Shown piece after piece: positions 31,515 through 50,683 of a DNA stretch of 64,000 nucleotides. The DNA comes from Desulfobulbaceae bacterium (lineage in GTDB: Bacteria; Desulfobacterota; Desulfobulbia; Desulfobulbales; Desulfobulbaceae). The position numbers and the translations under genes were made by a program. Below the pieces are notes generated by a model. It was not told where the DNA came from, did no database searches, and saw nothing but the letters and a program-made list of their open reading frames with translations. The stretch spans positions 1-64,000 of the forward strand of contig JAABTP010000006.1 of assembly GCA_011389815.1 (NCBI GenBank), given 5' to 3'. Within the stretch, counting starts at the first letter, position 1; each line of letters starts with the position of its first letter.

Positions 31515-31636
31515 AGAAAGGTGATGACGTTTGAATGCTGATACCATGGGCGTTACTGTTTGAGGATTGATTGGGGTAGGCAGCTTCTGTATGCAGAAAT
31601 AAAAATTCTTGTTAATTGAATTTGTTGTATGATTTC

Positions 31637-33421
31637 ATGTCTGATATATCAAAAATTCTCATTGTAGATGACGATCTGACCTATGTTCATGACCTTTGCG
31701 ATGTCCTGTCTGCGTATAGTCAGTACAAAGTATTGACAGCCACAAACAGAGGTGATGAGGTCTTTGCGCTGAAAAAAGAGAAGATAGCTGTTCTTGTTGT
31801 TAATCTCAATGCGGAAAATATTGATGCGCTGGCCTTGCTGTCTCTTGTTTCTTCATCATACCGTCACATTCAATGTATTGTGATGATTTCGCAAAAGCAT
31901 CCTTCTGTAGAATATGTGAAGGAATGCCGATTCAAGGATTCTATTTACCTTTATCTGGTGAAACCCGCCAACCTGGAGACAATTGGTTGTGCTGTTCTTG
32001 AGGGATTACAACGCCTGGATGAAAATGATTATACCCCTGGAATATTTGCTGGAAAAATAGTTTCTTTTCTGGAAGCCCTTGAAAAGACCTGTCGAGTTCG
32101 TGTCCATTTTGGCAGTAAAAAACAGGGTGAACTCCATTTTGACAAGGGCCTGCTTGTGAATGCCACTTGTGATAATAAACAAGGCGTAGATGCTGCATTA
32201 GAGATATTTGATTGGCCCCCGCTGGGGTTCACGCAAGAACCGGCAGAAAGCAATGGAGAGCATCTTATTACGCAGAAAGGTTTAGAAACTATCCTGATCA
32301 CCTCCAGATTAAAAAAAGAGGCAGCTGGCAGTCCGATAAGTGGCTGGGCAGGTGAAAGTTGTCCACTGGAGGCATCCAAGCAGAAAATAAACTTGTTTAT
32401 AGTGGATGATTCCAGGATGATGCGCAAGGTCATCGCCAATATATTTAAAGACAATCCTGTGGTGCAGGTTGTTGGGGAAGCAGAAAACGGGGAAGAGGCT
32501 CTTCAGATCATTCCCCAGCTCAAACCAGACGTTGTGACCCTTGATGTGGAAATGCCGGTCATGGATGGTCTGACCACAATGAAGCATCTGATGATTCAGG
32601 CCCCCACGCCCACAGTCATGCTCAGTGCCATGACCGTTGAAGGAGCGGATGTGACCTTTGATGCCCTGAAATATGGGGCAGTGGATTTTGTGGCCAAGCC
32701 TTCAAATACTGGTACTGTGAATCTTGAGGAGCAGACCAGCGAAATTGAACGCAAGGTACGCCTGGCAGCAGATGTAGAGCTTGAAGCAGTGAAATATGTC
32801 CGTGCTGTGAGTAAGGAAAAAAAAGAGGCTCTTGCCCTTGCTGGTGAAAAATGTGAGGGCCTTGTTGCCCTGGGAGCTGCTGAAGGCGGTTATGGTGCTT
32901 TTTTGAAAATCCTGCCTCATTTGTCAGCAAAGTTTCCAGTGGCCTACCTTGTTGTTTTTTATGTCCCGTCCCGACATCTTGACTCCTTTGTCAGCTATAT
33001 CAACAAACTTTCCCCCTTGATAATTCGCCGTGCAGAAAATGATGCCAAAATAGAAGCAGGTGTCTGTTATTTTGCCTCTGGAGAGGAGTATCTGACAGTT
33101 CGTGAAGTGGAAGGGGAGATGGTATTGCATCTTTCTTCAGCACCCTTTGCCACCCGGAGAGGTTCGATAGATATGCTCTTTTTTTCTGTAGCAGAACGGG
33201 TAAAAGAAAAAAGCATTGCTGTTGTCTTGTCCGGGATGGGCGAAGACGGTGGAGAGGGGCTAGGGGAGATTCTACGCGTGGGAGGGACAGGTATTGTTCA
33301 GGACCCGGCTGGTAGTCTGTACCGGGAGATGCCAGGGGCTGTGGCGGCCCGTTGCCCTGGGGCAAAGGTATTGCCAGACACAGGGATTCCCAGGGGTATT
33401 GAGGACGTGCTTGCGGGCTAA
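31637..33421 (+). CDS. REC-PATAN-REC-CheB-like protein with degenerate esterase
   Basis: 594 aa from the ATG at 31637. Domains: a receiver (7-125) with Asn in place of the phospho-Asp (VVNLNAENID); DUF4388/PATAN (135-230); a complete receiver (251-370; VDDSRMM, TLDVEMPVMDG, AKPS); and a CheB methylesterase-like domain (405-594). In the last, the GASTGG nucleophile loop reads GAAEGG (Ser to Ala) near 410 and the QHMP loop reads FYVPS (His to Tyr) near 441. The Asp in SGMGEDG near 535 is kept. Glutamyl-methylester hydrolysis is therefore unlikely; a binding or scaffold role is inferred. Confidence 0.88.
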   Translation: MSDISKILIVDDDLTYVHDLCDVLSAYSQYKVLTATNRGDEVFALKKEKIAVLVVNLNAENIDALALLSLVSSSYRHIQCIVMISQKHPSVEYVKECRFKDSIYLYLVKPANLETIGCAVLEGLQRLDENDYTPGIFAGKIVSFLEALEKTCRVRVHFGSKKQGELHFDKGLLVNATCDNKQGVDAALEIFDWPPLGFTQEPAESNGEHLITQKGLETILITSRLKKEAAGSPISGWAGESCPLEASKQKINLFIVDDSRMMRKVIANIFKDNPVVQVVGEAENGEEALQIIPQLKPDVVTLDVEMPVMDGLTTMKHLMIQAPTPTVMLSAMTVEGADVTFDALKYGAVDFVAKPSNTGTVNLEEQTSEIERKVRLAADVELEAVKYVRAVSKEKKEALALAGEKCEGLVALGAAEGGYGAFLKILPHLSAKFPVAYLVVFYVPSRHLDSFVSYINKLSPLIIRRAENDAKIEAGVCYFASGEEYLTVREVEGEMVLHLSSAPFATRRGSIDMLFFSVAERVKEKSIAVVLSGMGEDGGEGLGEILRVGGTGIVQDPAGSLYREMPGAVAARCPGAKVLPDTGIPRGIEDVLAG

Positions 33422-37740: not shown

Positions 37741-38106
37741 ATGAGTAAGCGAGTTCTGATAGTTGATGACTCATCTATGATGCGTAAGATGATCGCAAAA
37801 TTATTACAGCCCCCAGGCCATATTGTAGTGGGGCAGGCAAAAAATGGTCTGGAGGCGATTGATCTGTATAAGTCGTTAAAACCTGATATTGTGACTATGG
37901 ATATCACCATGCGTGATATGGATGGGCTTGCTGCGGCAGAAGAAATTTTACGTTATGATAGCTCTGCCCATATTATTTTTCTCTCAAATCTTGATGAAGA
38001 AATATATCGGGCTGAGGTTGAGCGTCTTGGAGCTCGGGGATTTGCAAGTAAACATAAGGCCAGAGAAATACTTGATATGATAGATGAAACAGATAGCGAA
38101 GGCTAG
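37741..38106 (+). CDS. cheY: CheY-like single-domain response regulator
   Basis: 121 aa. Acidic pair and phospho-Asp are present (VLIVDDSSMMRK, DIVTMDITMRDMDG), then the Ser switch (IIFLSNLDEE) and Lys (GFASKHK, lacking the usual Pro after Lys). With no flagellar motor genes in the window, its target may be a gliding or type IV pilus machine (inference). Confidence 0.9.
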   Translation: MSKRVLIVDDSSMMRKMIAKLLQPPGHIVVGQAKNGLEAIDLYKSLKPDIVTMDITMRDMDGLAAAEEILRYDSSAHIIFLSNLDEEIYRAEVERLGARGFASKHKAREILDMIDETDSEG

Positions 38107-38293
38107 TGTACTATCGCCTGAGTAGAGGTTATGCTGGTATTTTCCTTTGTTTGTAATGACAGGAATATTCGGATGGGTATGTTTTCCTATATAACGCCCT
38201 ATATTCTTAGAGAAAATAGCAGGCAGTTTGGTGATGGGTGCTTGTTTGGCTGGTCGCCACACAGTTCATCATAAAAAAACGGATTTGTCGCCT

Positions 38294-38920
38294 ATGTCTC
38301 CTTTTTTACAGGCAGCAAACGATGTGAGTTTAAAGAAAAAGACCCAGATTTTTTTTGTACTCAACTTTTTGCTGGTCACAATTGCAGCAGCAGGCCTTCT
38401 CTATGTATTAGTTAAACACAGCGGTGAGACTATAAGAATTGTTCATATTGTATTATGTGTAATTTTATTTCTTTTGCTGGGTATTCAAGCCGCTGCTTTG
38501 ATGTATTTTAAACGGAATATTATAAAACCCCTGGCTGAAATGCAGGCAGCAAGCAGATTAATGGCTGATGGACACCTTGAAACACTCAATCACACAAAAA
38601 GGGAGGATGAAATTGGTTCTTTAGGCGAAAATATTAATGATTTAGCGATGAATATGCAGGAAGTTTTGCTTTTTGTCTGGAACCATAGTCAATTAAGCCG
38701 GGATCTGCTGGAAAATATTGCTGATGATTTAAATTTTTCCCTGGATGCGGATTCAATTGATTCTATAGACAAAGACATACAAAAAGATATCAGTACAATG
38801 CATCGTAATAATGAAAACCTAAAATCTATTGTAATGTCATTTAGTTATTTTGAAATTAAATTGGAAGACGAGAAAATGGTCTCTGATTATCAGCAGGAGC
38901 CTGGAGTGACATTCTCCTGA
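38294..38920 (+). CDS. HAMP-only membrane protein 1
   Basis: 208 aa from the ATG at 38294; the frame is open from 38228. TM segments near 21-40 (IFFVLNFLLVTIAAAGLLYVL) and 52-72. HAMP linker near 73-125 (IIKPLAEMQAASRLMADGHL, DEIGSLGENINDLAMNMQ). The remaining 80 residues are helical and acidic with no kinase, cyclase or MCP output domain. It sits between cheY and cheA, so it probably influences the array through its HAMP helices; function unknown. Confidence 0.75.
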   Translation: MSPFLQAANDVSLKKKTQIFFVLNFLLVTIAAAGLLYVLVKHSGETIRIVHIVLCVILFLLLGIQAAALMYFKRNIIKPLAEMQAASRLMADGHLETLNHTKREDEIGSLGENINDLAMNMQEVLLFVWNHSQLSRDLLENIADDLNFSLDADSIDSIDKDIQKDISTMHRNNENLKSIVMSFSYFEIKLEDEKMVSDYQQEPGVTFS

Positions 38921-39066
38921 ATATACGAGTAAATATGATGAGCTGGTCTGACTGCCAGAAGAGGGAGTGTATACAATAAAGAGAGGAGTCAGACTTGAGA
39001 GGATACAGGATAGTAGAATATTTTTTAGCAATGCAAGAATAATCAAGTAGTTACAAGGTGGAGAAT

Positions 39067-42000
39067 ATGATAGACTCATCAATGTTACCGGATTTTATTG
39101 TTGAGGCGGCGGAACATCTTGAAGTGATGGAAAGCAGTCTTCTCCGGCTTGAACAGGGTTATGAAGTTACAGATAAAGAATTAATGGATGAAATTTTTCG
39201 TTCGATTCATTCTATCAAAGGAGCAGCTCAGTTTGTCGGGATTGAGCGCGTTTCTGAACTGTCGCATAAGCTTGAAAATTTACTTGATCTTATTCGTCGG
39301 GGTGAGATTACCTTGAGTCCGGCGATTACAGACTTATTAATTGCCGGTAAAGATCGTTTGACCCTGTTAGTGGATGAACTTGAACGTACCAAGGCAGAAG
39401 AAACAGAGGTATCTGACCTTGTAGAGCAGGTGCGAAGAGTAATTGAAGGTGAGGACGTTGAAGATGATGCGCCTGAAGAAACAGTGTCAGGTTCAGGTGC
39501 TGCCCAGGAAGAAGTACTTCAGGGACTAGGTGAGAAGGAGGAACAATCAGGACTTCTTACTGAAGAAAATATGTCTGATGAGTTTGATGAAGAACTCTAT
39601 AACATTTTCCTGCAACAACTCAAGGAAAATATACCCTTTCTTTATGCTCAAACTGTTGAGTTGTCAATTTCTGTTGATAAACAGGATGTCCTGTACCGTT
39701 GCAGTGATTCTATAAAAAGTCTCAAATCATCTGCCAATTATATGGGCTATGAAAAGCTTACCCAGCATTATTCCAATTGGCAACATGCTATTGATAATGC
39801 TGTTGAGCAACTTTCAAGTGGAAAAATGCCCAACCTGAATTTTATGCAGGATTATATAGATGAGATTATTCGTTCATTTCCCCAGGCAATGGAAGGGTAT
39901 TCGTATGATGATGCAGATGAACTGGGTGATGGGCATCAGGATGAGCAGCACGAAACATCGTCTATTGATTCAGCCCTGAATTCTATTTTTGCTGATGAAG
40001 ATCCAGCAGGAGTTTCCGATTCACCTGTTGCTCATCAGGAAGAAGACAGTGAGGACACACCAGAGCCTGAAGAGGTGGCAGGAGAAGGGATTGATCTTGA
40101 TGACGCATTGGATACGATCTTTTCCGATGAACATGGAGGAGTTTCCGATCATGGAGAAAATGCAGATTTCCAGAGTTTGGGCGATGAAGCTTCTCGTGCA
40201 GAACATTCTCTGGGGCCTGTAATAAAAGAGGAGGCTGGAAATGCGGCTGAAACAGTTCCTCTTGAATACGAGCTTTCTGATGATGAGTATGACGAAGAGC
40301 TTATTTCGATTTTTCTGAAAAAGTTAAAGGGTGATATTGAATATATTCAGACGCAGATTGCAGAATATCTGGCAGGTGCTGATATAAGAAAAATACTTGA
40401 GAACTGTCACGATGCTATTGGTCGGTTGTCATCATCAGCCAACTATATGGAATATATGAGCCTGACAGCATTTTGCGAGGTATGGCAGAACGTTGTTGAT
40501 GGTTATCTTACTGACGTTTCAGCAGGACTTGTTCCTGATATTGCTCCTGGTTTACAGGAGTTTGTTGATAAAATTATAAGTGTTTATCCTCAGATTGTTG
40601 AGAGCGAACAACAAAACGGGGATGATGAAATTTTTAGTGATGCTGAAGGAGCTGATGCAGGTTTTGACGATTCTCCAAAAGAGAGTAATGCTTCTGCTGG
40701 CAAAGAGGATAAGGACAAAGAACAGGCTGAAGAATTCGAAGGTGTAACTGCCGGTGAAAAAACAGAACATGTTGCACAGACAGAAAATGTGTCAGCAGAT
40801 AAAGCCCTTTTTGACAGGCTGAGTACAGCCTTAGAAACCCCTGAATATGCAAACAATGTATCAGAAGGGAGCATTGACAGGGTCATTGAAGAAATCATAG
40901 AATCTCCAGGGTATGAAGAAGAATCTGAACCTTCTTCAAATGAGGAGAATGGGACTATAGCTGGCTCTCATTTACTGGATCAGGTCGTTACTTCAAGCAC
41001 TTCAGATAAAAAAGAGGTTGCTGTGGACAACGCTCATACAGATGATATCCCTGATACTGCTGAAGAAAAAATACAGGATACCAGCGACTATGATGAGCCG
41101 GTTCCCGGGGGTGGAGAAAAAGAAGAAATAAAGAACGATCTTTCTGATCATTCTCCACAAAGCAAGCTAGGATTAGCGAAATCTGAGATTCTTGAGCAAG
41201 AGAAACAAGAAAAAGCCGCAGAAGGAGAACAGGAACAACAGTCTGCAAAGAAAGCATCCACTTTCCGAAGCAGCATTAGAGTTGATGCTGAAAAAGTGGA
41301 CTTTTTGATGAATCAAGTGGGTGAGTTGGTTGTTAGTCGTGCCTATTTTGCGCAGCTTGTTAATGAGATAAGAGGGTTGGAGATGCAACTTCTTGAGTCT
41401 TCCGGGACTTCTAAGAGTCAGCTCAAACCCCTTCATGAATTCGCCTTTCGATTAAGTGAGGCGGGTGTTCATCTTGGTCGCGTGTCCAACGAACTTCAGG
41501 AAGGTGTTATGAAGGTCAGGATGCTGCCCATTGATCAGCTGTTTAAACGCTATCCGCGTTTAGTGCGTGATCTTGCACGTAATACAAACAAGGATGTTAA
41601 ACTGGTTACAAGAGGTGAAGAAACAGAGCTTGACAAAATGGTCATTGAATCCCTTTCTGATCCTTTGATTCATATTATTAGAAACTCAGTTGACCATGGT
41701 CTGGAAAATGCAGAAGATCGTTTGCGGGCTGGCAAACCAGCCCAGGGAACACTCATTCTGGAGGCTTTTCACGAAAGTGATCATATTGTAGTGGAGATTT
41801 CAGATGATGGCAGAGGGCTTGATACGCAACGCATCAAAGCCAAGGCATTGGAAAGAGGTCTGGTCAGCGAGGATGAGTTAGAGCGAATGCCTGAACAGGA
41901 GTTGACCCGACTTATCATGTTACCCGGTTTCAGTACAGCTGAAAAAGCGACCCAAACATCCGGACGAGGTGTTGGTATGGACGTGGTGAAGAAGAACATT

Positions 42001-42576
42001 GAAAAGCTCAATGGTACGGTAGAGCTTTTTTCTGAGGCAGGAAAGGGAACACGCCTGCGTATTAAGATTCCTTTAACTATGGCTATTATTCAAGCCTTAA
42101 TGGTCCGGGTTGGAAAAGAAAAATTTACCATTCCTTTGACCTCAGTTGAGGAAACCCTGAGGGTGTTCCGTCATGAGATTTCAGAAATTGAAGGGGTTGA
42201 TGTTATTCACTTACGTGACAATACCATGCCTATTTTTCAGCTTGCCAAGATTTATAACATTGATCGTCAGGCAAGCCAGGAAGGAAAAATGTTTGTTGTT
42301 GTGGTGAGTACCGGAACCCAGGAGCTGGGCTTGGTTGTTGATGAACTCCTTGGCCAGGAAGAGGTCGTTATTAAACCACTTGCTGATTATTTGCGACTTG
42401 AAAGCGGGTTTAACGGAGCAACGATTTTAGGTGATGGTGGTATTTCACTTATTTTGGATATCCCTGAGCTTGTCAAGATAGCCAAGGAAAATCAAATATT
42501 GAGACAGGGTCAGCGTACGTTGGGTTTTAAGCGAAAAAAAAGGAATGCTGCAGAGACAGCAGAACAGGTTCATTAA
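39067..42576 (+). CDS. cheA: CheA histidine kinase with two extra His-less Hpt-like repeats
   Basis: 1169 aa from the ATG at 39067 (GGTGGAG upstream), far longer than typical CheA (650-750). The true Hpt domain has His48 (IFRSIHSIKGAAQF). Two Hpt-like repeats follow, near 170-270 and 405-505, each starting DEELYNIFLQQLK or DEELISIFLKKLK. At the phospho-His position these have Asp214 (SDSIKSLKSSANY) and Asp449 (HDAIGRLSSSANY). Long acidic linkers separate them. Dimerisation, the ATP-binding kinase domain (HIIRNSVDHGLENA, DDGRGLD, GRGVGMDVVKK) and the CheW-like domain occupy 740-1160. Confidence 0.95.
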   Translation: MIDSSMLPDFIVEAAEHLEVMESSLLRLEQGYEVTDKELMDEIFRSIHSIKGAAQFVGIERVSELSHKLENLLDLIRRGEITLSPAITDLLIAGKDRLTLLVDELERTKAEETEVSDLVEQVRRVIEGEDVEDDAPEETVSGSGAAQEEVLQGLGEKEEQSGLLTEENMSDEFDEELYNIFLQQLKENIPFLYAQTVELSISVDKQDVLYRCSDSIKSLKSSANYMGYEKLTQHYSNWQHAIDNAVEQLSSGKMPNLNFMQDYIDEIIRSFPQAMEGYSYDDADELGDGHQDEQHETSSIDSALNSIFADEDPAGVSDSPVAHQEEDSEDTPEPEEVAGEGIDLDDALDTIFSDEHGGVSDHGENADFQSLGDEASRAEHSLGPVIKEEAGNAAETVPLEYELSDDEYDEELISIFLKKLKGDIEYIQTQIAEYLAGADIRKILENCHDAIGRLSSSANYMEYMSLTAFCEVWQNVVDGYLTDVSAGLVPDIAPGLQEFVDKIISVYPQIVESEQQNGDDEIFSDAEGADAGFDDSPKESNASAGKEDKDKEQAEEFEGVTAGEKTEHVAQTENVSADKALFDRLSTALETPEYANNVSEGSIDRVIEEIIESPGYEEESEPSSNEENGTIAGSHLLDQVVTSSTSDKKEVAVDNAHTDDIPDTAEEKIQDTSDYDEPVPGGGEKEEIKNDLSDHSPQSKLGLAKSEILEQEKQEKAAEGEQEQQSAKKASTFRSSIRVDAEKVDFLMNQVGELVVSRAYFAQLVNEIRGLEMQLLESSGTSKSQLKPLHEFAFRLSEAGVHLGRVSNELQEGVMKVRMLPIDQLFKRYPRLVRDLARNTNKDVKLVTRGEETELDKMVIESLSDPLIHIIRNSVDHGLENAEDRLRAGKPAQGTLILEAFHESDHIVVEISDDGRGLDTQRIKAKALERGLVSEDELERMPEQELTRLIMLPGFSTAEKATQTSGRGVGMDVVKKNIEKLNGTVELFSEAGKGTRLRIKIPLTMAIIQALMVRVGKEKFTIPLTSVEETLRVFRHEISEIEGVDVIHLRDNTMPIFQLAKIYNIDRQASQEGKMFVVVVSTGTQELGLVVDELLGQEEVVIKPLADYLRLESGFNGATILGDGGISLILDIPELVKIAKENQILRQGQRTLGFKRKKRNAAETAEQVH

Positions 42577-42676: not shown

Positions 42677-43714
42677 ATGGATAAAAAACTTAAAGTTCTT
42701 GTTGTTGACGATGCAACCTTTATGACAAAGGCGATCAGTGATCTCTTGGAGTCAGATCCTGATATTGAGGTCGTTGGAGTTGCAAATAACGGACTGGAGG
42801 GGCTGGAAAAAATTAATGAGCTCCAGCCAGACGTTATCACCCTTGATATTGATATGCCGGTTATGGACGGACTGCAGGCTGTTCGGCATATCATGATTGA
42901 ATCTCCGGTACCCATTGTTGTTTTAAGCTCATTATTTAGTGACGGTTCCATCACCTTTGAGGCGTTACGCCTTGGGGTTGTTGATTTTGTGGCAAAGCCA
43001 TCAGGGGCGATATCAAGTGATATTCATACAGCGAAACAACACATTGTTGACCGTATTAAACTGGCTTCGGCTGTTAACTTTCAGAATATACGGCGAGTTC
43101 GGGTGAACGCCCGAAAAAAAAAAGAAGGGCTTGCTGATCTGTATGGATTTCATCCCCTGGATTATATAATTGCTATTGGGACCTCATTGACCGGGCCAAA
43201 TACATTTATTCGCCTGATGACACGGCTTAATGCAGGACTGCCTGCTGCTGCTGTTATTTTGTTAGAAATTTCTCCTAAAATACTTGCTGCTTTTGCAGAA
43301 AAATTTAATGAATTTGTTCTTTGGAAGATAGAAGTTGCACGTCAAGGAACAGTCTTGGAACAGGGAGTTTGTTATATTCAGTCAAACATGCATTCGTTGA
43401 CTATTGGCTTAAACGAAAACGGTGATTCTTGTTTTCAGCTTGGTGAACGGGTTGAAAATCCGTTGGATACCTTTTTTCAGTCATCAGCTGAAGTATTTCG
43501 GGAAAATACAGTTGGGGTTCTTCTTACCGGTTATGGAGATGACGGATCAGAAGGTTTTGCCGCCATTCAAGGGAAATTCGGCAAGACCATAGCCCAAAGC
43601 GTGGAGACCTGTGTGTACCCCAGTCTTACTGATACTGCAATAAAGCGCAATAAAGTGGACTTGATTGCTGAAGAGGCACAACTTGCTGAGGTTATTGAGT
43701 CTGTTATTCGATAA
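42677..43714 (+). CDS. CheB-like response regulator lacking the catalytic His
   Basis: 345 aa with the CheB layout: receiver (5-125; VDDATFMTK, TLDIDMPVMDG, VAKPSG), linker, esterase-like domain (150-345). The nucleophile loop GASTGG reads GTSLTG (Ser kept, near 168). The QHMP loop reads LEIS (His to Glu, near 197), and the Asp in GYGDDG is present near 290. Without the His, esterase activity is doubtful. It follows cheA by 100 nt in the normal place for cheB. Gene symbol left open for that reason. Confidence 0.87.
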   Translation: MDKKLKVLVVDDATFMTKAISDLLESDPDIEVVGVANNGLEGLEKINELQPDVITLDIDMPVMDGLQAVRHIMIESPVPIVVLSSLFSDGSITFEALRLGVVDFVAKPSGAISSDIHTAKQHIVDRIKLASAVNFQNIRRVRVNARKKKEGLADLYGFHPLDYIIAIGTSLTGPNTFIRLMTRLNAGLPAAAVILLEISPKILAAFAEKFNEFVLWKIEVARQGTVLEQGVCYIQSNMHSLTIGLNENGDSCFQLGERVENPLDTFFQSSAEVFRENTVGVLLTGYGDDGSEGFAAIQGKFGKTIAQSVETCVYPSLTDTAIKRNKVDLIAEEAQLAEVIESVIR

Positions 43715-43864: not shown

Positions 43865-44776
43865 ATGATTATTACATGCGACAGTTGCAAAACCAGATAT
43901 AAGGTTGCTGACGATATAATTAATAAACCGACATTCAAGGTGCGATGTCATAAATGTAATTATAGGTTCATTATACATAAAAATGATCCATTGGATGATT
44001 CCTTTCTCCTGCAGGATGAGGTTTCTGCAGATGATCATCGCATTATTGCACTGAGCAATCAGAAAGGCGGGGTGGCAAAAACAACGACCTGTCTTAATTT
44101 GGCAGTGTCGCTTGCTCATATGGGCAAGAAAGTGCTTGTGGTTGATTTTGATGTGCAGGCCAATCTCACCATTTTACTTGGCTTTCGACAAACCCGCTCT
44201 TTTTATGAACTCTTGAACAAGGAGGTCAAAGGGATCAATGATATCATTTTGCATACAAAATATCCTAATTTATCCTTGCTCCCTTCGAACAGTAAAATGG
44301 CACTCCTGAAGAAAAGGTATCTAACACAGCATAATTTTGAATATTTACTAAGAAACAGGCTACAGGAGATAGAAAAAAAGTATGATCATATTTTAATAGA
44401 TACTCCGCCATCTATTGAGTTTTTTACCTTAAATGCCTTGATTGCAGCAAAATTAGTTATTGTACCGACCACTTGCGAATATCTTTCAATACATGGTGTG
44501 TCACAAATAAGCGACATTATTAAGGTGCTGAAAGGCATTGATCACGATATAGAATATAAGGTTCTTATCACGATGTTTGATGCCAGAAAAACATCGGAAA
44601 AAGTGATTTATGAAAAGATTCGGCATAAGTACGGAGCAATGGTCTGCAAAACAGTCATTGAGATTGACGATAAGATGCAGGAGTCACATATCGTGAACCT
44701 CCCAATTCTATACTATGATGAAAAGAGCAAATCTGCTGGTCAGTACCAGGACTTAGCCCTTGAGATTACAGAATAA
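43865..44776 (+). CDS. ParA/MinD-type ATPase with N-terminal zinc finger
   Basis: 303 aa. Residues 1-40 form an MJ0042-type zinc ribbon (ITCDSCKTRYKV, VRCHKCNYRF). From about 60 comes a ParA ATPase with deviant Walker A (SNQKGGVAKTTT), Walker A' (VLVVDFDVQANL) and Walker B (HILIDTPPS). No parB is near. ParA homologues in chemotaxis clusters (ParC, PpfA) position receptor arrays, so array placement is the likely role. The zinc finger could tether it to a partner. Confidence 0.88.
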   Translation: MIITCDSCKTRYKVADDIINKPTFKVRCHKCNYRFIIHKNDPLDDSFLLQDEVSADDHRIIALSNQKGGVAKTTTCLNLAVSLAHMGKKVLVVDFDVQANLTILLGFRQTRSFYELLNKEVKGINDIILHTKYPNLSLLPSNSKMALLKKRYLTQHNFEYLLRNRLQEIEKKYDHILIDTPPSIEFFTLNALIAAKLVIVPTTCEYLSIHGVSQISDIIKVLKGIDHDIEYKVLITMFDARKTSEKVIYEKIRHKYGAMVCKTVIEIDDKMQESHIVNLPILYYDEKSKSAGQYQDLALEITE

Positions 44777-49300: not shown

Positions 49301-50683
49301 ATGAAACATCCTGTTGGAAGCGGTTTTGTTGGTGAAATAGAAGGGCTTGGGTTAGTGGATCTTGTCCAGTTTGCCTGCCTTGCTGGTGATGATAGAAAAC
49401 TCAGTGTGCTCAGTGAAGACAATAGAGGGGTACTCTATTTTTCTGATAATGAAATTGTTCATGCTGAATTCGGCGAGTTAAGCGGCGAAGAGGCGTTTTA
49501 TCGGATCATGAGCTGGCCTTCCGGGACCTTTAGTATGCTCTTTGCCTCGACTAATGTGCGTACGATTGACTCTTCATGGAATTTTCTTCTGTTAGAGGCT
49601 GCCCGTCGTATTGATGAGCAGTACAAAGACAAGGCAACCACTGAGGACGATTCTCAGCTCCCTAAAGTTTTGGTGGTGGATGATTCCCGTTTTTTTACCA
49701 AAGCATTTATTAAGCTTTTTGAAGAGCAGATTCATGCTCAGGTTGTTGGAACGGCGACAAATGGCAGGGAAGCGCTTAAATTTTTGGAGATGCAGGTTCC
49801 TGACCTTGTGACCCTTGATATGACCATGCCGGTCATGAGCGGGGATGTTGCCTTAAAGCATATTATGATACGCTCACCTGCGCCGGTGGTATTGGTCAGT
49901 AATTTTAATGATCAGCATTATTCCAGAGTGATGGATTTTATGCGCTACGGATGCGTGGACCTGGTTGCCAAGCCGACCAGCCCTGAATCCTGGAATTTCA
50001 TTGGTCAGCGGCTCCAATATCTTTTGCTCAATGTGAAAGAATTTTGTGTTGATAATGTCAGCAGGGCAAAACAATTAAAACCTGTTGATCCTGAGATAAA
50101 AAAACAACCGGAAAAAAAAGCAGAAAAACTTTTACTGATACTTGGTGGCCTGGGCGGGATGCTGGAGTTACAGAAAATAATTCCAGCACTTTCCTATGAC
50201 AGCGACATGGCAGTATTGGTCTTACAAAATATGTATCCTGGTATTGTCCAGTTTCTTTCTTCATATCTTGATAGTTTTACTCCCTATGCAACCAAAACGT
50301 TTTTGGAGACTAATGAAGTGCTGGGGGGGCAGTGTTTGGTTGGAAATTGTCATGGAAAACGAGAAATAATTATGTCAGAAGGTATTCCAGTGCTCACAGG
50401 CCCGGAAAGAGATGATGACCTGCAACTGATCAATACAGATTCTTTGCTCCATTCTGCTGCTGATATATTTGGTGCAGCACTCACAGTGGTTTTTCTCAGC
50501 GGGGTGGATCAGGATATAAAAGAAGGGATGGAAGCCGTGGTGACCCAAGGTGGGAAAATTATTTTGCAGGCCCCTGATTCCTGCTTACTCCCCCGTTCCA
50601 TTGAAGAGATTCGTAGTTTAGGTATGGAAGAATGCTGTTTGAAGCCAGAGGAAATTGCTCCTTATATTAATCCATTATTTTAG
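49301..50683 (+). CDS. PATAN-REC-CheB-like protein with degenerate esterase
   Basis: 460 aa. DUF4388/PATAN (5-105; VDLVQFACLAGDDRKLSVLS, EIVHAEFGELSGEEAFY); receiver (122-245; VDDSRFFTKAF, TLDMTMPVMSG, VAKPTSP); CheB-like domain (275-460). In the latter the nucleophile loop is GGLGGM (Ser to Leu) near 283 and QHMP reads QNMYP (His to Asn) near 310. The region of the third residue, SGVDQD, has an Asp but lost the glycine-rich context. The third CheB-like protein of the cluster and the most decayed. Confidence 0.85.
   Translation: MKHPVGSGFVGEIEGLGLVDLVQFACLAGDDRKLSVLSEDNRGVLYFSDNEIVHAEFGELSGEEAFYRIMSWPSGTFSMLFASTNVRTIDSSWNFLLLEAARRIDEQYKDKATTEDDSQLPKVLVVDDSRFFTKAFIKLFEEQIHAQVVGTATNGREALKFLEMQVPDLVTLDMTMPVMSGDVALKHIMIRSPAPVVLVSNFNDQHYSRVMDFMRYGCVDLVAKPTSPESWNFIGQRLQYLLLNVKEFCVDNVSRAKQLKPVDPEIKKQPEKKAEKLLLILGGLGGMLELQKIIPALSYDSDMAVLVLQNMYPGIVQFLSSYLDSFTPYATKTFLETNEVLGGQCLVGNCHGKREIIMSEGIPVLTGPERDDDLQLINTDSLLHSAADIFGAALTVVFLSGVDQDIKEGMEAVVTQGGKIILQAPDSCLLPRSIEEIRSLGMEECCLKPEEIAPYINPLF

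Follow-up and report, generated by a model that had tools for sequence, protein, structure and literature searches.

Hpt-related proteins that lack the phosphorylated histidine and act by binding include the plant pseudo-Hpt AHP6 and FimL from Pseudomonas aeruginosa. Within CheA kinases, His-less Hpt domains are already known from ChpA and CheA3, and the source that describes them regards their role, in its available text, as undetermined or lost (PMC10782961). In its accessible part, PMC5706961 describes for Vibrio a segment of CheA that is confined to ParC/ParP systems. The binding of a receiver by a P1 domain is illustrated by the Rhodobacter CheA3-P1/CheY6 complex in which, according to the available portion of the report, the receiver is gripped by residues 10, 11, 14 and 15 of helix A, with additional contacts from residues 56, 58, 59 and 60 of helix B and residues 61 and 63 of the next loop (PMC2817712).

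The genome studied here is that of a cable bacterium, a group described as gliding in redox gradients in the available text of PMC12449579. The window, i.e. the whole stretch of 64,000 nucleotides that was analysed, encodes a CheA with two His-less repeats of Hpt fold, R1 and R2. Sequence comparisons and structure models indicate that these repeats are probably docking sites, for which a receiver is favoured over the neighbouring ParA-like ATPase as the partner.

Domain layout of the cable-bacterium CheA

CheA is encoded by a single open reading frame (39058-42576), with the following features:

39067..42576, forward strand: CheA, 1169 aa, with the order Hpt1 - R1 - linker - R2 - linker - P3 - P4 - P5
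39082..39384, forward strand: Hpt1 (P1), Pfam Hpt; codon of His48 at 39208-39210
39571..39900, forward strand: R1, His-less Hpt-fold repeat; Lys217 (39715-39717) at the His site, Asp214 (39706-39708) at H-3
39901..40275, forward strand: acidic linker between R1 and R2, with two short motifs found by eye, IDSALNSIFADE and LDDALDTIFSDE
40276..40608, forward strand: R2, His-less Hpt-fold repeat; Gly452 (40420-40422) at the His site, Asp449 (40411-40413) at H-3
40801..40899, forward strand: short linker motif found by eye, ALFDRLSTALE ... VIEEI
41269..42477, forward strand: P3 (dimerisation), P4 (ATPase) and P5 (CheW-like); N, G1 and G2 boxes intact

The Pfam matches of CheA comprise Hpt, H-kinase_dim, HATPase_c and CheW, and no Pfam match to a P2 domain was obtained in this protein. 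The Hpt match, together with the ATG at 39067 that yields the numbering of His48, confirms the normal Hpt domain recognised in the preliminary description. The range given there for the repeats, 39571-40600, does take in both of them, but ends 8 bases before the end of R2. Orthologues of the repeat region are found in Candidatus Electrothrix aarhusensis (72% identity) and Ca. Electrothrix gigas (71%).

Two sets of relatives were compared. The 11 members of the intact set have an intact kinase and belong to Electrothrix or to one of two further genera in the family; the eroded set consists of six genomes from yet another genus of this family, in which the kinase has a broken N box and a broken G2 box. 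Motifs resembling IDSALNSIFADE and LDDALDTIFSDE are present in the R1-R2 linker of the intact relatives, with none seen in the eroded ones, and the ALFDRLSTALE ... VIEEI motif is recognisable in both sets and in genome G013. The conserved short linear motifs of the disordered linkers can be written as LDxALxSIFxDE (39901-40275) and LFxxLSxALE ... VIEEI (40801-40899). A small membrane protein with a HAMP domain (38228-38920) lies between CheY and CheA in most of the intact related operons; its conservation is low, at 46% across four genomes.

Kinship, fold and register of the repeats

R1 (residues 169-278) and R2 (residues 404-514), of approximately 110 residues each, are 38% identical and can be aligned over their whole length. 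Their BLOSUM local score of 215 lies 36 SD above that of shuffled sequences (29.0 ± 5.2) and was reached by none of 1000 shuffles, which establishes the two extra repeats of about 100 residues that had been noticed by inspection. The score of Hpt1 with R1 is 59 (shuffles 27.7 ± 4.5, reached by 0 of 1000), and the repeats are thus closer to each other than to Hpt1, as had also been remarked. Taken alone, the pairwise alignment of Hpt1 with R2 is not significant (158 of 1000 shuffles), and the kinship of R2 with Hpt1 reaches significance only when the family is considered as a whole. A profile of 37 repeats matches the PDB sequences 2ld6 (E 5e-5) and 1tqg (E 9e-5). The Pfam Hpt model (PF01627) gives 12.9 bits with R1 alone, against a gathering cut-off of 24.6, and matches 35 of the 37 repeats at E up to 1, with a best value of 9.6e-6. 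An hhalign comparison of the repeats with their own Hpt1 domains yields a weak match (27.6% probability, E 6.5e-4), and the case for kinship is therefore carried mainly by the fold, by the score between R1 and Hpt1 and by the profile match in the PDB.

AlphaFold2 models were calculated from six sequences, taken from the window and two named Electrothrix contigs. Structure prediction had been proposed in the preliminary description as a check, and it returned all-helical four-helix bundles of the Hpt type for both repeats and no deviating fold, with mean pLDDT values of 89.8 for R1 and 92.8 for R2. The best natural PDB match to both is the P1 domain of Thermotoga maritima CheA (1tqg), with Z 13.1, rmsd 2.6 and 102 aligned residues for R1 and Z 13.9, rmsd 2.6 and 103 aligned residues for R2; the matches ranked next are further P1 domains. 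Designed four-helix bundles score equally high, so that the fold alone is no proof of kinship, and Foldseek gave no PDB match to the R1 and R2 models at E < 0.001. The P2 domain, in contrast to the all-helical repeats, is of the α/β type. The sequence and model evidence suggests that both repeats arose as copies of the CheA P1 (Hpt) domain and have since diverged, a proposal which, judged jointly with the receiver docking discussed below, appears about evenly poised.

Four alignments define the register at the His site: a pairwise BLOSUM alignment, the repeat HMM against the same protein (a weak match), hhalign against the Hpt1 domains (also weak) and the repeat profile against T. maritima P1. 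In all four, His48 aligns with Lys217 in R1 and Gly452 in R2, and with the repeat profile the active His of T. maritima P1 falls in the same column. The segments KSLKSSANYMG (R1) and GRLSSSANYME (R2) pair with HSIKGAAQFVG of Hpt1. The previous assignment, in which SDSIKSL and HDAIGRL were taken as the equivalents of HSIKG and Asp214 and Asp449 were placed where the His is expected, is a register error, the match between DSIK and HSIK being shorter than the pairing given above. Asp214 and Asp449 align with Arg45 at position H-3, one helical turn off. This position is Arg in 21 of 21 active P1 domains (the canonical domains caught by the repeat profile; the 18 Hpt1 domains of alignment A4 are not among them) and Asp or Glu in 54 of 77 repeats. 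As judged from the alignment, this charge reversal is common in the repeat family but is no substitution of the phosphorylated residue.

The wider family was collected from searches of the class and the phylum. Among 257 genomes of the class, 27 have a match at E up to 0.001 and 25 at E below 1e-10; the two excluded from the latter (G110 and G207) carry ordinary His-bearing Hpt domains. Among 395 genomes of the phylum 33 match at E up to 1e-6, i.e. 32 besides that of the window, of which 20 were fetched and read. The number of repeat copies per protein ranges from one to three, and no match was found on plasmids searched with the repeats. The loci that were read provide 77 aligned repeats, with one truncated fragment (G110_o2) left out; the term covers every sequence that does not combine the His with a Gly at H+4, including the weak G454_p2 and two very diverged repeats of G013.

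The His is absent from its site in 76 of these 77 repeats, and the column contains Gly (19), Lys (17), Glu (12), Ala (10), Asp (7), Ser (4), Thr (2) and one each of His, Val, Asn, Leu, Gln and Arg. The sole His (G186) lacks the Gly at H+4, which is present in only one of the 77 repeats, and this doubtful case is all that the proposed search for His-containing versions in relatives brought up. Neither R1, with Lys217, nor R2, with Gly452, possesses a phosphorylatable His. The Spt and Tpt domains of ChpA are phosphotransfer variants that use Ser or Thr; these residues occupy the His position in six of the 77 repeats, R1 and R2 not included. The repeats have also lost the Lys, Gly, second His and Glu of columns 52, 53, 68 and 71, which we take to be catalytic neighbours of the His, with replacement both of column 68 (His in 19 of the 21 P1 domains) and of column 71 (Glu in 21 of 21). 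Mimicry of phospho-His by charge, which had been put forward for the two Asp residues, finds Lys and Gly at the site here and 13 different residues over the family; Asp as a phosphomimic is rejected on the basis of the register and of this variability. The frequent occurrence of Glu and Asp at the His site outside the class of the window echoes the charge idea, but the variety of residues in the alignment speaks against a conserved charge function.

The conserved groove and its candidate partners

Two motifs and three single residues make up the signature shared by the repeats: D-x-E-L-x-x-I-F early in helix A and S-S-A-N-Y-M-G-Y closing helix B, together with Cys44, Trp70 and Pro104. In the structural alignments of the R1 and R2 models, repeat position n pairs with residue n+2 of CheA3 towards the N-terminus, in agreement with the His columns; the CheY6-binding residues named in the accessible text on the complex thereby fall on repeat positions 8, 9, 12, 13, 54, 56, 57, 58, 59 and 61. 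Eight of these ten positions are invariant or at least 90% conserved in the 37-repeat set, compared with 17 of 110 overall, and one of 52 slid versions of the interface ties the observed conservation. For the 77 repeats the mean conservation is 0.625 at the ten positions versus 0.319 elsewhere (p 3.5e-5), which none of 52 slid versions reaches, while the 21 canonical P1 domains show no clear excess (0.564 versus 0.484, p 0.12). Position 12 is Ile in 75 of the 77 repeats and Asp or Glu in 19 of the 21 P1 domains; with Ile there the pocket becomes hydrophobic, like that of CheA3-P1. At some of the interface positions the residue is partly buried within a Hpt fold, which could in itself account for its conservation. 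The two repeats that survive in G013, both diverged, no longer show the groove signature.

With interface-equivalent positions among the most conserved and the catalytic residues lost, the suggestion in the preliminary description that the repeats bind receivers without phosphotransfer is probably correct. That R1 and R2 gave up phosphotransfer and kept the receiver-binding groove is a proposal which, on these alignments and models, we hold with about even confidence.

Across the 11 intact relatives R1 is the most conserved CheA domain, with a mean identity of 86.8%, compared with 82.3% for P3-P5, 74.8% for Hpt1 and 53.0% for R2. In the eroded set three of the six genomes have Arg in place of His48 of Hpt1, and the remaining three lack the Gly at H+4; the mean identities are 65.3% for R1, 59.6% for R2 and 44.4% for P3-P5. 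The eroded loci retain the protein with the N-terminal CheB1 receiver (69%, six of six) and ParA (63%), with the receptor down to 30%. No CheW, CheY, HAMP protein or CheB2 was seen at the six loci; CheB3 is kept in five, none being seen in G030 within the stretch read. Other CheA cores are present in most eroded genomes, and in G052 the eroded core is the only one at E below 1e-10. Directly before ParA, G013 encodes a protein of 649 residues that has no kinase domains but carries a degenerate Hpt at its N-terminus and the two diverged repeats; this genome has two CheA cores on other contigs. At the six eroded loci (L047, L050, L051, L052, L053 and L054) a pseudo-kinase CheA stands beside a degenerate receptor and ParA, an arrangement that can be read as a chemosensory array, decayed or repurposed.

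According to the docking proposal, R1 and R2 would tether one or more receiver proteins of the same operon close to the kinase array and pass no phosphate to them. They would do so from the position that P2 takes in other CheAs, and would remain useful after decay of the kinase. The N-terminal receiver of CheB1, CheY or other CheB-type receivers may be the ligands. The candidates in the window and the rival partner are:

31649..31999, forward strand: CheB1 N-terminal receiver, acceptor Asp replaced by Asn; candidate ligand
37741..38106, forward strand: CheY; candidate ligand
42677..43714, forward strand: CheB2 (receiver and CheB domain); candidate ligand
43865..44776, forward strand: ParA-like ATPase with N-terminal zinc ribbon, next to CheA; rival partner

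The best single candidate in the cable-bacterium family appears to be the CheB1 N-terminal receiver. Its acceptor Asp is Asn in the window as well as in each of the ten further intact genomes examined from the three genera, its helix 1 carries a hydrophobic residue at the position read from the alignment as the Met finger of CheY6, and it is the receiver kept at all six eroded loci. The equivalent receiver of the eroded loci has Asp in five of six and Cys in G009. The CheB1 N-terminal receiver is recognised in only part of the wider repeat family, so that another receiver would have to serve elsewhere. Docking of all three CheB-like proteins, as envisaged earlier, is not borne out: CheB2 is missing from the six eroded loci that retain the repeats. 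Compared with solved CheB structures, all three CheB-like proteins of the window have lost catalytic residues, with Ser to Ala and His to Tyr in CheB1 (31616-33421), His to Glu in CheB2 (42677-43714) and Ser to Gly and His to Asn in CheB3 (49301-50683). No CheR was found within the window; two are located on other contigs of the genome.

The His site of R1 is Lys in 11 of 11 intact genomes, and in a more specific form of the proposal this Lys would enter the acidic pocket of the CheB1 N-terminal receiver. A dead Hpt and a dead receiver would then form a permanent, phosphorylation-independent joint that outlives the kinase as the system decays, which we regard as rather improbable in this form. 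In favour of docking in general, the comparisons provide the conservation of R1 in the intact set and the retention of R1, R2 and the CheB1-type receiver in all six eroded genomes; against it they provide the variability of R2 in the intact set, the loss of the signature in G013 and the lack of CheY and CheB2 at the eroded loci.

Alternatively, the repeats could be adaptors for the downstream zinc-ribbon ParA-like ATPase and thereby position the array, comparable to CheA-LID with ParP/ParC in Vibrio. Within the class the correspondence is perfect: of the 257 genomes, the 25 with a zinc-ribbon ParA at E below 1e-75 are the same 25 that carry the repeats at E below 1e-10. The ParA gene also adjoins the repeat gene in 14 of 14 annotated loci besides the window, and the kinase-less repeat protein of G013 lies immediately upstream of it. 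However, co-inheritance in one operon by itself explains this co-occurrence, and the most conserved surface of the repeats overlaps with a receiver interface. As a universal partner ParA fails in the phylum, where none lies nearby at eight of the 17 informative repeat-CheA loci (the contig end is too near in G521, G431 and G454 to judge the neighbours in the remaining three of the 20). An adaptor function for ParA, the main rival of receiver docking, is unlikely.

Hpt folds can self-associate, and the presence of several repeats in some proteins would suit structural spacers or dimerisation modules that bind each other or the array lattice; the conserved face, however, maps to a heterotypic interface, and this role is quite doubtful. 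A Hpt fold without His would also suit a pseudosubstrate that occupies the P4 kinase site and damps phosphorylation of P1, comparable to plant AHP6, yet the six genomes with a broken N box and G2 box in P4 have kept the repeats, which makes this role very unlikely. That the repeats are relics, i.e. decayed extra Hpt domains under no selection, would agree with the variability of R2 but is contradicted by R1 and by the signature common to repeats across the phylum, and is hardly credible.

Comparison with known systems

The repeats resemble the CheA P1/Hpt domain (PF01627) in their four-helix fold with the αB-αC hairpin and in their sequence-profile kinship, but differ from it in the absence of a phosphorylatable His, the loss of the surrounding quartet and the possession of their own signature, DxELxxIF/SSANYMGY. 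AHP6 and FimL, unlike the repeats, are separate proteins with other partners. No published description of the repeats was found in the literature on chemotaxis and gliding of cable bacteria and on CheA with pseudo-Hpt domains, mostly from open-access journals. Within the literature searched, three features appear to be new: a family that extends over the phylum and has a signature of its own, the overlap of this signature with a receiver interface, and the retention of the repeats after kinase decay. The family would provide a clean case that is phylum-wide, conserved at receiver-binding positions, variable at the phosphate site and retained after decay of the kinase; one small domain and five receivers would suffice to put the docking hypothesis to the test. 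For cable bacteria, the repeats mark an unusual array, in which the three CheB-like proteins have likewise lost catalytic residues.

Like the repeats, the CheA-LID of Vibrio is part of a CheA and is accompanied by a ParA-like positioning system; as described in the available text, LID binds the CheW-like AIF domain of ParP and is not presented as a Hpt fold (PMC5706961). No ParP was recognised among the annotated genes of the window operon. ChpA of P. aeruginosa also contains extra Hpt domains without the His site, whose role is called undetermined, but is a Tfp-class CheA with many Hpt domains and a C-terminal receiver, none of which applies to the CheA of the window (PMC10782961, available part). 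Hpt2 and Hpt3 of Rhodobacter sphaeroides CheA3 are, like R1 and R2, His-less and located after a working P1 (PMC10782961, as far as its text is accessible), and the operon-type system of Rhodobacter, in the accessible part of PMC5706961, has a ParA-like protein too, PpfA. By the description in the same part of PMC10782961, CheA3 Hpt2 and Hpt3 belong to a kinase that is split with CheA4 and are judged largely nonfunctional, whereas R1 and R2 are located inside a complete kinase, with R1 strongly conserved and R2 variable.
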